Assembly (NCBI RefSeq): GCF_023150235.1
Contig: NZ_JAKLLH010000009.1
Location: 56,886-120,885, forward strand
DNA length: 64,000 bases
Reading direction: 5' to 3'
DNA from: Azonexus sp.
GTDB lineage: Bacteria; Pseudomonadota; Gammaproteobacteria; Burkholderiales; Rhodocyclaceae
Part shown: piece after piece, positions 12,932-18,939 of the stretch
Layout of the letters: the number at the start of each line of letters is the position of its first letter
Numbering within the stretch: position 1 is the first letter of the stretch
Translations under genes and position numbers: made by a program
Notes under the pieces: generated by a model
What the model was told of the DNA's origin: nothing
The model's database searches: none
The model's input: the letters and a program-made list of their open reading frames with translations, nothing else

Positions 12932-13339
12932 TTATGCCGCTCTGACTTCGTCGAGCAGATCAGGATGGCGGTCAAGCACCTTGAGCAGTTTCACCAAGGC
13001 CAAGGGCGGCTTGGTCTTGCCATTCTCATACCGAGAAAACGCATTGACCCCGCCGCCGAAGATTTCGGCAGCCTCGCGCTGGTCAAGATCGAGCTTCTTG
13101 CGCACCTTGGTAATGAAGCCCGGATCGACGATTGCCGCATTCACCTGCTTGGAGAAGGCACGCATTTTACGCATGATGCGGTTCGACTCAGCTGCATCCA
13201 GGATGGACTCGGCGCAGGCCGGGCAGAAGTCGCCCATCACTGCTGCAATGACGGTGGATTCACCCTTGTACGTGTAGGGCAGGTCGCGGGTGTCGTGGAT
13301 CAGTTCTGCCGCGCCGCAAACAGGACATTTCATGTTCAT
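12932..13339 (-). CDS. mqsA: Type II antitoxin MqsA
   Basis: A 135-residue antitoxin. The N-terminal zinc-binding domain has two CxxC pairs (MKCPVCGA near 4-11 and FCPACAES near 38-45). The C-terminal XRE-type helix-turn-helix (about 70-130) contains LDQREAAEIFGGGVNAFSRYENGK, the MqsA/YgiT hallmark. MqsA neutralises the MqsR endoribonuclease and represses its own operon. Its ATG lies inside the ATGA junction with the reconstructed end of mqsR, the standard toxin-first order. The gene appears intact although its partner is frameshifted. It is bracketed by long direct repeats. Confidence 0.94.
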   Translation of the reverse strand: MNMKCPVCGAAELIHDTRDLPYTYKGESTVIAAVMGDFCPACAESILDAAESNRIMRKMRAFSKQVNAAIVDPGFITKVRKKLDLDQREAAEIFGGGVNAFSRYENGKTKPPLALVKLLKVLDRHPDLLDEVRAA

Positions 13340-13636
13340 AGCTCCTTAAAGGACACGATCAGGACGTCATCAATGACCGTCAATTTCAGGTATACATCGC
13401 CCGCCCGCCTGCGTGCTCGGGCGGTACACGTCCTGCCATATCGTGTGATCGACATAGGTGGTCATGCTTTTGCAGAAGTCCGCTGGCGTGAGCGCCATCA
13501 CCACGTCCAGCATCTCGGAAAGCTCAAGCCCCAACTCGCTTGCACCGACTCGCGCCGCGTGCGTGGTGCGCACCTTGCCAGCCTCTACCAAGGTTTTGAC
13601 CACGGCCAGCTTGCAGTGCGGGGTTCGTTTTTCCAT
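13336..13636 (-). pseudogene. mqsR: Toxin MqsR, frameshifted near the C-terminus
   Basis: The first ~70 codons match the MqsR mRNA interferase very well (MEKRTPH at the start, KSMTTYVDHTIWQDVYRP in the middle). After YRPSTQAG the frame slips: translation continues as GRCIPEIDGH and stops at 13370. A single extra G in the GGGCGGGC tract (13399-13410) explains this. Removing it restores DVYLKLTVIDDVLIVSFKEL and a TGA at 13338-13336 that overlaps the mqsA ATG, giving 99 codons, the family length. The lost segment includes the C-terminal strands of the RelE-like fold, so the toxin is probably inactive, unless this is a sequencing error or a slippage-controlled site. Confidence 0.85.
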
Positions 13637-14244: not shown

Positions 14245-17200
14245 CTAAACCGGATTCCTCAGCCCAAAAACCACGCTCATCGGCTCACTACCTTGATGGC
14301 TCTGATAGTGGACCGGACCAAAGTAGCTAAACGGAGCGGCTTTGCCGGCTGCGAGTTTGTGTTCACGGACGAAGAGGTGGATTTTTCGGCCAGCTTTCTC
14401 ATGCTCGATGATTTCCCGGCCGCGCTTGCTGCTGGGTGTGGTTGCGTTTTGCGATTGCCAGTGGAAGGTGTTTTCGTCGATCCAGTAGTCGGTGTAACGA
14501 TGGTCTGCGGCTTTGCCTTGTTTGTTCAGCGTGACCAGCAGGACGTGGGCGTTTTGCTCGTTCAGGACGACGTGGCCGCTGTTCCAGCTGCCGGCATTGA
14601 AGATTTCACCAAACAGCCCAGGGATTTCCTCGCGCATGAACGACTGACCCACCGCCAGATCCAGCGGATCAATGATCTGTTTGAAGCGGGCCAGGGTGCG
14701 CATCGAATCGTCGGCGGGCAGGTCTTCGTATTCGGGATTATTGGCTTTCAGGAGGTAACGGCCGGGGCCTTGTTTGACGACCACGCGCAGCAGGTACTGG
14801 TTGTCGCCGTATTCGTCCTGGCGTTCGATGGCGACGGTATGGCCGCTGATTGATCCGGCGTTATTGGCGGTCAACAGCTCCAGCAGCAGGAAATCACCAT
14901 CACGGATCGGCTGTTTGCCGCCGTTCATTGAATTGCCGCTGGCTCGGGCGATGAAATGGCGGGCAGGATCGAGTTGACCGTAAGAAAGCGGTAGCACCCG
15001 GTGTTCCATGATTTCTGCGGAACTGGTGCGGAAGTGGCCGCAGGCGATGCGCAGGTCGTCGAAGTAGGGCAGTTCGACGACCTGGCGTTGCGTCGGCGTC
15101 GGGAAGGGCAAGATTTGCGCGCTGTCGCTCTGTTGTGACTGGCGGGCTTCGTAGGTGGCGAAGCGAAAATCGATCAGCTCCTGGACCAGTTCAGTGAAGG
15201 TTTCAGCCTGTTGGCTAGGGATGGTGAGCGAATTTTTGAAAATTTCACGGTCGACCGTGAAAAAAGATGATTTTTTGTTAGTGAGGTTGCCACCCACCCA
15301 AGCATTCACCAGATTTTTGCGCCAGTAACGTTGCCATTCGCTGGCGTCACCGCTCAGTTGGTGGATATTTTCCGGCAGATCGGCGAGGAGTGGCGGGCGG
15401 CGATGCAGGATTTCCCAGGAGACGCGGGCCAGGTCGGGTAAGAGAACGTCGTTGGTCCAGCCCTTGAGTTGCTGAAAGGCTTCCAGTAGCACCATCTTGA
15501 AACTGGCCGTCATCCGGGTGGTTTCGAGCTCGACCAGGAAAGCGCGGTAGCGGCCGAGCAAGCTCCGTTCGGCATCGCTCAAGTCGCCCATGCTCGCGAC
15601 CAGGCTGAACCAGTCGCCGTATTGTTGGCGAATGCGGGTCGGTGCTGCGCCTGCGCGGTAGAACTCGGTCAACGTGGGGCGACGACCAAGCGCTTCGCGC
15701 AGCGTTCCGTAATCGTCAGCGAGGCCGTTGTTGTCTAGCGATTTCAGGAAGTCGATAAAGCGCAGGTCGTAATTGATGAAACAACCGTCGGGCAGCGGCC
15801 AGGTGCCTTTTTCCAATTGCCGGGCAAAATCGACCAATTCACGCAGTTGACCGTGCAATCCGGCCAGCGCCTGGGGTTTGTGCAGGAAGGATTTGTGATT
15901 GGCGATGAAGTCGAGCACGACCAGGCGATTTTTGCCTTCCGCGTGACGTAGGCCGCGACCGAGTTGTTGCAGGAAGAGGATCTTGGACTCTGTCGGGCGC
16001 AGCATCAGCACCGTGTCGATGGCTGGCAGGTCAACGCCTTCGTTGAACAGATCGACCGAAAAAATGACCTGCAGACGGGCATCGGCCAGTTGTTGCAGCG
16101 CTTCGCCCCGAGAAAGTGCTGAGCCAGCATAGATGGCAGCCGCAACGATGCCGGCGGCGCGGAATTGTTCGGCCATGAAATCGGCGTGGCGGCGCGAGAC
16201 GCAAAAGGCCAGCGTTCGAGTTTGCGATTTATCCTGCCATTCCTTCAGCGCATGGCGGGCGCGGGCGTGGGTGGCCAGCTTGTTGACCAGCATTTCCGGA
16301 TCGAACTGGCCGTTGCGCCAGGGAATTTCCCGGTAATCGACCGATTCGTCGAGGATGCCGAAATAGTGGAAGGGGGCAAGAAATCCGCCGTCGATACCGG
16401 CAAACAGATTGCGTTCAAAAACCAGGTTGTCATCGCACAGCGCCAGGATGTCGGACTGATCGCTACGGTCCGGCGTCGCCGTCAGGCCGAGCAGGAAACG
16501 CGGCGAGAAGTGCTGCAGCAGACGCCGGTACATCGGCGCGGCAGCGTGGTGGAATTCATCGACGACGACGTAATCGAAGTGCGTTGGTGAAAACTGTTGC
16601 AGATGCTGGTCGCGGCCCAGGGTTTGGATCGAGGCGCACAGGATGTCGACTTCGGCATCGCGTTGGCGGCCGGTGTAAAGGCCGAGGCTGGTTTGTGGGC
16701 GAATGCGCTGGAAGGTGCTGGCGGCCTGGTTGAGAATTTCTTCGCGGTGGGCGACGAAAAGAATACGCCGGGCCTGTGCTTGTTGCGTATCGAAGGCGGC
16801 CAACCAGGTTTTACCCAAACCGGTCGCCAGTACTACCAAGCCACGCTGATAGCCCTCCAGGCGGGTGTTGTGTAGCGCGGCCAGGGCATCGCGCTGGATA
16901 TCGGTTGGGACTGGCGGCGGGTCGTCGTCCTTGTTGCCGAGCGAGACAGGCAGCAAAGCGCGCGGCGACATGGGGTTGCGCCGTGCTTCGTAGGCGCTGA
17001 TCCAGTCGTCGCTGAGCGTGACGCAGCGCGGATCAGCAAACTGCATTTCAAAACGTGATCGCGCTTCGATGAACCCGTTGTCGCCGGGGTAGTCGATGCG
17101 GTAGTTCCATTCCAGGCCGTCGGTCAGCGCCGGGCGGCTGATGTTGCTCGAACCGATGAAGGCGGTGCCGTGCATCTGCCCATCGCGAAAGTGCGCGAAC

Positions 17201-18114
17201 AGGTAAGCCTTCATGTGGAAGCTTTGCCCGGCGGTTTCATACACCTTGATCTGTGCCCCTTGCGATTGCAGCAGCATCAACTGACGCAGTGCTTCCGGGT
17301 CGGTCACGTCGAGATAGTCGCTAGTCAGAATGCGCAGGCGAACCGGGTTTGCCGGCGTGGCTCGCGCCAATGCTTCCTGAAAATCAGGCATCAACTGACG
17401 TAGACCGCTAGATTTGATGAAAGCGACGGTCATGTCGATTTCATCAGCCCGTGCGATGGCTTGCGAGAGTTGCGGCAGAAAAGGATGATCACGGCCGCCA
17501 ATGATCAGTTTTTCGTGTGGGACGGGGGCGCGGAAAAGTAGGGCATTCAACCAGCGTTCGCTGCGGTCCGGGCGTTGATCTCCTGTGATCCAGGTTTCGT
17601 TCGAAACTATGTCGGGAATGCCGGTCAGCCATGCAGCCAGGCGGCTTTCATCGGCATCGGTGAAGTGCCGACCACCGTGTTGACGCTCGCCCGCGCCATA
17701 TTTGAAGCTCAGATAAAACACGCCACCCGGTTTCAGTGCCTGCCACAGGCGCTGCAGGCTAGGGGATAACTCGCTTTCCGCTAGGTGCAGCAGGCTGGCA
17801 CAGGCCCAGATGCCGTCGTAAACAGCGATTTCGTTGACGTCGGCAAAGCGGCGGTGCCCGATGGGTAGGTCGGTATGGCGACGGGCTAGCTCTACCAGCC
17901 GGGATGAGGCGTCGAAGGCGGTGACGCGGTAGCCTTGTTCTTGAAATGCCTTGCTGTCGCGTCCTGAACCGCAGCCGGCATCAAGAAGATGCGCTCCCAC
18001 CGGCAAGCGGGCGAGAAAACGCTGCTGGAGCGCTGCCATATCGACGCCCTGTGTATCAGAGAAAAAAAGCTCGGCATGGGTGTCGTAGTAAGCAACGGTG
18101 TCGATCTGTGGCAT
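14245..18114 (-). CDS. Methyltransferase-PLD nuclease-SF2 helicase-LexA-like-DUF3427 fusion
   Basis: A 1289-residue protein with five recognisable parts. Residues ~1-195: class I SAM methyltransferase (motif I LLDAGCGSGRD near 46). ~200-370: phospholipase-D-type nuclease module with a single HxK (HMKAYLF near 302) and GSSNISRP near 324. ~410-770: SF2 helicase with ATGLGKTW (431), DEFHH (519), LTATPDRSD (548) and a motif VI QQLGRGLRH. ~1040-1140: S24/LexA-like fold with SGNSMNGG (Ser near 1059), IRDGDFLLLE, and VVVKQG (Lys near 1111), a possible Ser-Lys dyad. ~1160-1289: DUF3427. PLD-helicase-DUF3427 proteins are known, probably DNA-processing or defence factors; the methyltransferase fusion is notable. 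I start at MPQIDTVAYYD (18114); the 59 codons upstream cross a terminator. No good ribosome site is visible. Confidence 0.85.
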   Translation of the reverse strand: MPQIDTVAYYDTHAELFFSDTQGVDMAALQQRFLARLPVGAHLLDAGCGSGRDSKAFQEQGYRVTAFDASSRLVELARRHTDLPIGHRRFADVNEIAVYDGIWACASLLHLAESELSPSLQRLWQALKPGGVFYLSFKYGAGERQHGGRHFTDADESRLAAWLTGIPDIVSNETWITGDQRPDRSERWLNALLFRAPVPHEKLIIGGRDHPFLPQLSQAIARADEIDMTVAFIKSSGLRQLMPDFQEALARATPANPVRLRILTSDYLDVTDPEALRQLMLLQSQGAQIKVYETAGQSFHMKAYLFAHFRDGQMHGTAFIGSSNISRPALTDGLEWNYRIDYPGDNGFIEARSRFEMQFADPRCVTLSDDWISAYEARRNPMSPRALLPVSLGNKDDDPPPVPTDIQRDALAALHNTRLEGYQRGLVVLATGLGKTWLAAFDTQQAQARRILFVAHREEILNQAASTFQRIRPQTSLGLYTGRQRDAEVDILCASIQTLGRDQHLQQFSPTHFDYVVVDEFHHAAAPMYRRLLQHFSPRFLLGLTATPDRSDQSDILALCDDNLVFERNLFAGIDGGFLAPFHYFGILDESVDYREIPWRNGQFDPEMLVNKLATHARARHALKEWQDKSQTRTLAFCVSRRHADFMAEQFRAAGIVAAAIYAGSALSRGEALQQLADARLQVIFSVDLFNEGVDLPAIDTVLMLRPTESKILFLQQLGRGLRHAEGKNRLVVLDFIANHKSFLHKPQALAGLHGQLRELVDFARQLEKGTWPLPDGCFINYDLRFIDFLKSLDNNGLADDYGTLREALGRRPTLTEFYRAGAAPTRIRQQYGDWFSLVASMGDLSDAERSLLGRYRAFLVELETTRMTASFKMVLLEAFQQLKGWTNDVLLPDLARVSWEILHRRPPLLADLPENIHQLSGDASEWQRYWRKNLVNAWVGGNLTNKKSSFFTVDREIFKNSLTIPSQQAETFTELVQELIDFRFATYEARQSQQSDSAQILPFPTPTQRQVVELPYFDDLRIACGHFRTSSAEIMEHRVLPLSYGQLDPARHFIARASGNSMNGGKQPIRDGDFLLLELLTANNAGSISGHTVAIERQDEYGDNQYLLRVVVKQGPGRYLLKANNPEYEDLPADDSMRTLARFKQIIDPLDLAVGQSFMREEIPGLFGEIFNAGSWNSGHVVLNEQNAHVLLVTLNKQGKAADHRYTDYWIDENTFHWQSQNATTPSSKRGREIIEHEKAGRKIHLFVREHKLAAGKAAPFSYFGPVHYQSHQGSEPMSVVFGLRNPV
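15243..15262. repeat. Palindromic repeat inside the helicase fusion gene
   Basis: A perfect 20-bp palindrome, TTTCACGGTCGACCGTGAAA, with AT-rich flanks. In the fusion protein it is read as FFTVDREIF near residue 953, in the region between the helicase and the LexA-like domain. It is an exact core copy in frame within a coding sequence. Confidence 0.9.
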
Positions 18115-18199: not shown

Positions 18200-18631
18200 T
18201 CAACTCTTGGGAATAAACAGCGCAGGGCTGACACCAAAGAACTCACCAAGTTTTCCGGCCAGTGTGGCCGATATCTTGCGGTGACCAGCAAGTATCTTCG
18301 ACAGATTGCCTTGCGCGACGATATTTGAAAGGTCTTCCTGTTTCAGGCCTTTTGCCTCGATCAGAAAGCGTAGGGCATCCTTCGGCTCAGACGCTGCGAT
18401 GGCGAAGTGTTCGCGCTCGTAGTTGGCGATCAGATCGCCGACAAGTTCCAGAAGACCTGCCAGTTGGTGCTCTTCATTGTCGCCAACTACATCGAGTAAG
18501 TCATTCATGAGGGCTACCATGCGGTCATGGCCGGCTTCGTCATGGATCGGACGAATGCGAGTCATGGCATCGAGCTTGGTCCAGGAGGTCTGGATGGCGC
18601 GGATGTCAAAACGGCTTTGAACAGCATGCAT
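18200..18631 (-). CDS. higA: Type II antitoxin HigA
   Basis: A 143-residue antitoxin. The N-terminal half is acidic and helical (DEAGHDRMVALMNDLLDVVG). The C-terminal XRE-family helix-turn-helix contains AKGLKQEDLSNIVAQGNLSK and ISATLAGKLGEFFGVSPALF, as in HigA proteins of the COG5499 type. It should bind and neutralise HigB and repress the operon. The ATG lies 2 bp after the higB stop, giving toxin-first order. It is followed by a terminator and then the helicase fusion gene. The gene appears complete. Confidence 0.92.
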   Translation of the reverse strand: MHAVQSRFDIRAIQTSWTKLDAMTRIRPIHDEAGHDRMVALMNDLLDVVGDNEEHQLAGLLELVGDLIANYEREHFAIAASEPKDALRFLIEAKGLKQEDLSNIVAQGNLSKILAGHRKISATLAGKLGEFFGVSPALFIPKS

Positions 18632-18633
18632 GA

Positions 18634-18939
18634 TTACACCTTCCCTTTCCTGTGCCGCTTGTTCCAGTTGTCGTATTCACGGTGCGTCATCACTTCGCGA
18701 ATGTAGACTTTCTTGAACTTGTACTGCACGACAGCAATAACTCGATAGTTGTTACCGCCCACGCCAAATACCGTATGGGGAGGCACATAGTCAGCCGAGT
18801 TGAATGTATTTTTCAGCTCGTTGAAGTCTTTTGCCGTCGACTTCTCCAGAACCACCGAATGCCAGTCCTTCAGTACTTGCTCGGCCTCCGGGTGCCTCTC
18901 CCCGAACTCGCACAACATTTTCAATGAAATGATGTGCAT
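18634..18939 (-). CDS. higB: Type II toxin HigB (mRNA interferase)
   Basis: A 101-residue RelE-superfamily toxin that cleaves mRNA on the ribosome. It has the HigB features: the basic C-terminal half with GGNNYRVIAVVQYKFKKVYIREVMTHREYDNWNK, including the conserved T-H-x-x-Y-D near the end, and an N-terminal LCEFGERHPEAEQVLKDWH helix. Length and order (higB then higA, 2-bp gap) are standard. A clean palindrome upstream fits HigA autorepression. Both genes look intact, in contrast to the mqsRA pair at the other side of the island. Confidence 0.93.
   Translation of the reverse strand: MHIISLKMLCEFGERHPEAEQVLKDWHSVVLEKSTAKDFNELKNTFNSADYVPPHTVFGVGGNNYRVIAVVQYKFKKVYIREVMTHREYDNWNKRHRKGKV

Follow-up and report, generated by a model that had tools for sequence, protein, structure and literature searches.

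A cell whose own DNA is damaged or abnormally modified has to keep restriction silent. One gene in a 64-kb stretch of DNA from Azonexus sp. (contig NZ_JAKLLH010000009.1; the whole stretch is called the window in the following) raises the question whether such a control can be part of the restriction enzyme itself. The gene (14245..18114, minus strand, as all coding features of the window given below) codes for a single protein of 1289 amino acids. The original prediction, made from the sequence without database searches, had described it as a fusion of methyltransferase, PLD nuclease, SF2 helicase, LexA/S24-like domain, and DUF3427 with a possible self-cleaving sensor. We find that the product is probably a SauUSI-type, modification-dependent restriction machine with an inserted LexA/CI/UmuD-type domain, and consider whether this domain could switch the enzyme off.

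Domain architecture of the enzyme

Above the curated cut-offs the Pfam families class-I methyltransferase, PLDc_2, ResIII, Helicase_C, Peptidase_S24, and DUF3427 were found in this order, which confirms five parts in one chain with the S-adenosylmethionine (SAM) methyltransferase fused in front of the PLD-helicase. The methyltransferase comprises residues 1-195 (17530..18114; Pfam and a match to PDB 3e23). The PLD nuclease domain has a Pfam span of 224-343 (17086..17445) with near-invariant H300-x-K302 and GSSN 321-324, and the SF2 helicase-like ATPase (residues 403-724; 15943..16908) carries the Walker A motif TGLGKT and a DEFH box. The coupler region, about residues 746-985 (15160..15879), was assigned by its position between SF2 and S24 and by the domain order of SauUSI (PMC7913695, used here and below for the part of the paper that was covered). 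The S24 domain (residues 1013-1150; 14665..15078) was recognized by Pfam and PDB matches and the SRA-type reader (residues 1153-1289; 14248..14658) by the DUF3427 profile.

The top match in the defence database was the PADLOC type IV restriction enzyme model mREase_IV (E 3.7e-127) and the best solved relative was SauUSI (PDB 7clg, E 4.2e-92), in agreement with the earlier assignment to the DNA-targeting PLD-helicase-DUF3427 proteins. As in SauUSI, a PLD nuclease, an SF2 ATPase, a coupler, and a C-terminal SRA reader follow each other in one chain, and the DUF3427 profile alignment shows two residues of the SauUSI base pocket, Asp858 and Trp868, to be kept. Unlike SauUSI, the enzyme has an S24 domain between coupler and reader, a methyltransferase in front, and changes in the pocket, and some of its relatives are reader-less. 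By sequence or model, the S24 domain sits at the coupler/reader joint, with the motor half on one side and the reader on the other. Judged from the families of its domains, the 1289-residue protein probably acts in restriction, with translocation and nuclease activity.

Conservation of the S24 domain

The segment near the C-terminus proved to be a true S24 (LexA/CI) fold. In a phmmer search against the PDB its ACGHF stretch lies over the Cys-Gly of UmuD (E 4.2e-4). When its profile was compared with nine S24 proteins (a LexA-like frame of the host, seven UmuD/LexA-like frames, and a repressor of phage type), Ala-Cys-Gly lies over Ala-Ala-Gly and Ser1062 over the nucleophile (E 8.5e-17, whole-length alignment). 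Three marks of the self-cleaving S24 family, namely the fold, a serine nucleophile, and an upstream X-Gly cleavage site, are found in the domain: Cys1025-Gly1026 (15037..15042) lies where LexA and UmuD have their cleavage site and Ser1062 (14929..14931) where they have the nucleophile.

Conservation was followed in 87 loci, comprising the best 80 of the 323 relatives found in a genome-contig scan, six from a search of the class, and one plasmid. Leaving out contig ends, broken genes, and remnants, 71 rows with a full helicase were obtained, the window included. Cys1025, Gly1026, Ser1062, and Met1063 are identical in all 71 and across 91 S24 rows, which include the phage-type L124 and two fragments; this invariance is partly built in, since the scan supplying most rows used two motif patterns containing these residues, and the six loci found by whole-domain similarity alone agree on them. 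For the S24 domain four pairs gave ratios of nonsynonymous to synonymous substitution rates (dN/dS) of 0.05-0.25, values that fall inside the range seen for the other domains; dS was saturated in three of these pairs. The nucleophile begins a family-specific stretch, SMNGGK (14914-14931, residues 1062-1067). Its last residue, Lys1067 (14914..14916), is present in 71/71 rows and is a possible candidate for a relocated general base.

A possible off-switch and its alternatives

What could such a domain do at the reader joint? In the course of events that we propose, the SRA domain would find a base modification on DNA entering the cell, the SF2 motor would translocate, and the dimeric PLD nuclease would shred the DNA. 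Upon DNA damage a RecA filament would engage the S24 domain and the chain would be severed, or would at least come unlatched, at Cys1025-Gly1026. The methyltransferase-nuclease-motor part (1-1025) would thereby be parted from the S24-reader part (1026-1289), and with the reader lost restriction would stop while the chromosome is under repair. Cleavage, the dependence on RecA, and the 'off' outcome are what we infer for this enzyme. That damage stops restriction along this route we consider possible, somewhat short of probable. The full reading, a RecA-responsive self-cleaving switch with a non-canonical dyad (Ser1062 with Arg1110 or Lys1067), no LexA box, and a widespread lineage, is advanced tentatively; if true, it would amount to SOS-coupled restriction alleviation built into a single polypeptide.

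Several observations weigh against the off-switch. The general-base lysine of LexA is probably not at its usual place in the domain. In the hmmsearch alignments with two LexA/UmuD-like frames, L138 (no gap between its lysine and the Asn-Pro motif) and L135 (one gap), Arg1110 (14785..14787) falls on the catalytic lysine, and Leu1109 takes the position of the LexA lysine in the hmmsearch alignment with the host LexA-like L126 and in the profile alignment; both residues are constant in 71/71 rows. The peptidase activity may therefore be weak or absent. The lysine chosen in the original prediction, Lys1114 (14773..14775; 70/71 rows, with Arg in the remaining one; the two Glu variants lie in the frameshift-broken genes L072 and L111), is possible but not favoured. 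It falls on a basic residue four places after the catalytic lysine of L135 and L138 and meets the catalytic lysine only in the alignment with L136, which is weak and gapped and disagrees with the others. The alignments with L132, L133, and L137 are gapped across the lysine place and those with L124 and L134 stop short of it. A self-cleaving sensor is still plausible with its invariant Ser and Cys-Gly site, whereas the Ser/Lys dyad as originally placed is doubtful and a displaced or altered Ser-base dyad is likely.

Moreover, the chain ends with S24 in 5/71 rows, which have no fused reader that could be split off. Behind the stops of these five frames no DUF3427 remnant was found in the next 900 bases (774 for L040), and loss of the reader by a recent stop was rejected on this ground. 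Transcriptional SOS control was rejected as well: the window contains no LexA box, an exact box was absent upstream of 67 relatives (random control 0.5%), and a box with one mismatch was present upstream of 6/67 as compared to 4.0% in the random control.

The reader adds to these points. Its DUF3427 profile matches SauUSI residues 809-950 (E 1.6e-23), and SauUSI Tyr831, which in the model of that enzyme is positioned for a contact with the methyl group (PMC7913695), is replaced by a His that is invariant in a 59-row alignment; Phe841 is changed to Leu, Ile842 to Val, and Met829 to Ser. The target of the reader may be another modification than that of SauUSI. Avoidance of 5-methylcytosine by the carriers was not seen, C5-cytosine methyltransferases occurring in 22/48 carrier genomes versus 81/200 in the order (Fisher p 0.52; the carriers comprise six genomes from the class search and 42 from the 80 loci of the scan, a few of them with a damaged copy), and a broad 5-methylcytosine target is not favoured. 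The window's own genome gave 0 matches to the C5-cytosine methyltransferase family (PF00145; control positive in 10/14 genomes). The target of SauUSI is sequence-specific (PMC12707154, in the part covered), and therefore the enzyme could coexist with a C5-cytosine methyltransferase.

Arg1110 or Leu1109 at the place of LexA's lysine in the better alignments would suit a pseudo-peptidase, which no longer cuts and holds the Cys-Gly segment in its cleft as a latch. It could serve as a second dimer interface or as a contact to the RecA filament, and docking and undocking would regulate the coupling of reader and motor. The LexA/CI fold has been seen on RecA filaments and S24 is kept in the five reader-less rows, both in line with a latch. 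A nucleophile invariant in 71/71 rows is, however, not required by a pure latch, and the basic residues K1067, R1110, and K1114 (70-71/71) could supply the base; we regard the latch as somewhat unlikely. The reader-less members can further be taken to mean that motor, nuclease, and S24 can form a working unit. The S24-reader half might restrain the motor-nuclease, and RecA-triggered cleavage would free it for indiscriminate DNA degradation and kill the infected or damaged cell, for which the toxin-antitoxin neighbours described below suggest a growth-control setting. Such an on-switch is improbable: the ATPase of SauUSI is activated when the reader recognizes its target and hardly at all by unmodified DNA (PMC7913695), which argues that severing the reader means loss of function, and with an on-switch chromosomal damage alone would be lethal. 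Finally, S24 could be a structural relic, only a DNA-binding or spacer domain at a place where sister enzymes have a domain of similar size, and the sister forms with HIT and MazG domains (L042, L043) do carry a different segment there. We find this very doubtful, as the invariance of ACG and Ser-Met over the 71 rows is unexpected for a spacer and both occur on either side of the deepest division among the S24 rows.

Comparison with known systems

Unlike LexA, lambda CI, and UmuD, the S24 domain described here is embedded in a restriction enzyme, has no helix-turn-helix (HTH), and has a longer hairpin; it differs from LexA in addition by the residue at the lysine position, probably Arg1110 or Leu1109, and by the extra invariant Lys1067. 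The logic of the proposed off-switch has a parallel in type I enzymes (EcoKI), where host proteolysis by ClpXP suppresses restriction after DNA damage (PMC12707154, in the part covered). There the protease is external, whereas here the switch would be part of the enzyme itself. A word search of the text of this review gave no mention of LexA, UmuD, or S24. No fusion of S24 with a restriction enzyme was found among the papers listed in searches of the open-licence literature (in one listing 20 of 52), and no known mechanism for silencing type IV enzymes was met in the passages covered. Judged from the open-licence literature, the component parts are known and an S24 switch in a restriction enzyme is apparently new. 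With a LexA-type switch at the reader joint, a single gene and a small set of point mutants would allow a direct test of damage-coupled control of restriction, and a lineage extending across many proteobacteria and a few other groups would, if the off-switch is true, point to a general design.

The N-terminal methyltransferase

The SAM motif DAGCGSG is near-invariant. A modification of DNA by this domain, as first proposed, was not borne out: a pattern scan with the DNA-methyltransferase motif IV (N6/N4 or C5, pattern taken from general knowledge) gave no match within the N-terminal 200 residues of 60 sequences, and no DNA-methylase family was among the Pfam-type matches listed (in one listing the best 25 of 34). 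The nearest solved relative, PDB 3e23, is an uncharacterised small methyltransferase (E 6.9e-25), and the model of the defence protein mad2 in PADLOC matches residues 34-141 (E 8e-12). The methyltransferase is fused or adjacent in 70/71 rows and is therefore likely tied to the function of the enzyme. It appears to be a constant partner without the marks of a DNA methylase, which is a second question raised by this enzyme family. NUDIX genes are found in 4/133 immediate neighbours (see below); a role in nucleotide clean-up would be speculation only.

Distribution and history

The five-part fusion is present in 58/71 full-helicase rows. Two rows have the fused methyltransferase and no DUF3427, seven a separate neighbouring methyltransferase gene with DUF3427, and three a separate methyltransferase without DUF3427, whereas no methyltransferase is visible in L087 (1/71), which starts near a contig end. 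The idea of a single-gene system holds for most rows and fails for the 10/71 with a separate methyltransferase gene.

The best 80 scan relatives belong mostly to Betaproteobacteria, but also to Gamma- and Alphaproteobacteria, one Synechococcus, and metagenome-assembled genomes of Desulfuromonadales, Holophagae, and Schekmanbacteria; those nearest to the window's genome are metagenome-assembled Azonexus genomes. S24-type matches were found in 6/368 other genomes of the class sample. The order sample contained PLD-helicase relatives in 15/199 other genomes and one methyltransferase-only match at a contig end, and a motif scan found the S24 pattern in none of these 15 relatives.

In a helicase tree of 43 rows a single branch (91/88, not starred) separates the 27 rows with S24 from the rest, and the S24 label changes once as compared to 13.1 times on average for shuffled labels. 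The neighbours of the S24 group are the single HIT (L042) and MazG (L043) forms. They resemble the enzyme in having an N-terminal enzyme domain before PLD and are its nearest outside rows; they differ in the lack of S24, and L043 also in having no DUF3427 match. The tree fits one acquisition of S24 followed by horizontal spread.

The two outside forms (L042:6986-10627, L043:8121-11276) have their HIT or MazG domain where the methyltransferase stands, the MazG match being weak and below the cut-off, and the different segment at the S24 place has no PDB sequence match (HIT form searched). In Rhodocyclus purpureus (L117:5466-12164) an S24-type enzyme is directly followed by a second PLD-helicase-DUF3427 enzyme without S24. 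On a Pseudoalteromonas plasmid (L026:3067-11901) a separate methyltransferase and a PLD-helicase-S24 gene without DUF3427 stand directly before an ABC-three-component system. In L093:293-4177 and L101:2189-6136 an in-frame stop separates the helicase from S24, leaving methyltransferase-helicase and S24-DUF3427 as separate frames; these two relatives are either pseudogenes or natural two-subunit forms. Stand-alone S24-DUF3427 frames (L047, L066, L094) were rejected as a form of their own and judged 5'-truncated remnants; in L066:7938-11010 and L094:7974-10930 a second, near-identical DUF3427 end follows some 2 kb downstream, which looks like a duplication of the 3' end.

Neighbouring genes

Directly upstream of the enzyme gene are an HTH antitoxin-like gene (18200..18631; profile matches) and a HigB-family toxin gene (18634..18939; Pfam, PADLOC), followed by two tRNA-Arg genes. 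Downstream are genes of an MqsR-family toxin (13370..13636; Pfam) and an MqsA-family antitoxin (12932..13339; Pfam), beyond which a MutS-like frame was recognised by eye. The enzyme gene borders directly on MutS in L044, and in L045 its immediate neighbour is a frame 85% identical to that MutS. A terminator-like hairpin (18180-18161) lies between the HTH gene and the enzyme gene, and the HTH transcript is probably separate. Among the relatives, L045, a near one, is the only case in which HigB and HTH genes both lie directly upstream; in L069 just a HigB-like frame stands beside the enzyme. The toxin-antitoxin neighbours of the predicted island are thus present, with a weak link to the enzyme, and the HigB/HTH pair as a part of the system was not supported in view of the hairpin and the recurrence only in L045. 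Membership of the pair in PD-Lambda-2 was also rejected, with a resemblance to A and B only (P0002 matches 118/402 profile positions).

Neighbours of the homologues were chosen by a crude longest open reading frame rule (133 of 140 listed, seven long ones dropped for size) and compared with distant open frames (110 of 191 listed). HNH nucleases match 7/133 immediate neighbours versus 1/110 distant frames and SoFic 3/133 versus 1/110. Overall, 121 PADLOC families were matched in the distant set, including Septu, Hachiman-type, and TIR, versus 65 near the gene. HNH nucleases recur next to the gene; a general enrichment of defence genes there was not shown.

A palindrome inside the gene

The perfect 14-bp palindrome CACGGTCGACCGTG occurs five times in the window (12830, 15246, 23777, 41909, and 63799). 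There are 187 copies in the 3.4-Mb genome and none of the reversed control sequence. In 7/8 genomes of the same genus, several of them incomplete, and in four order-mates no copy was found, and the eighth genome has one. The copy inside the enzyme gene is common to L044. The palindrome looks like a species-specific, highly iterated element, often within longer imperfect inverted repeats.

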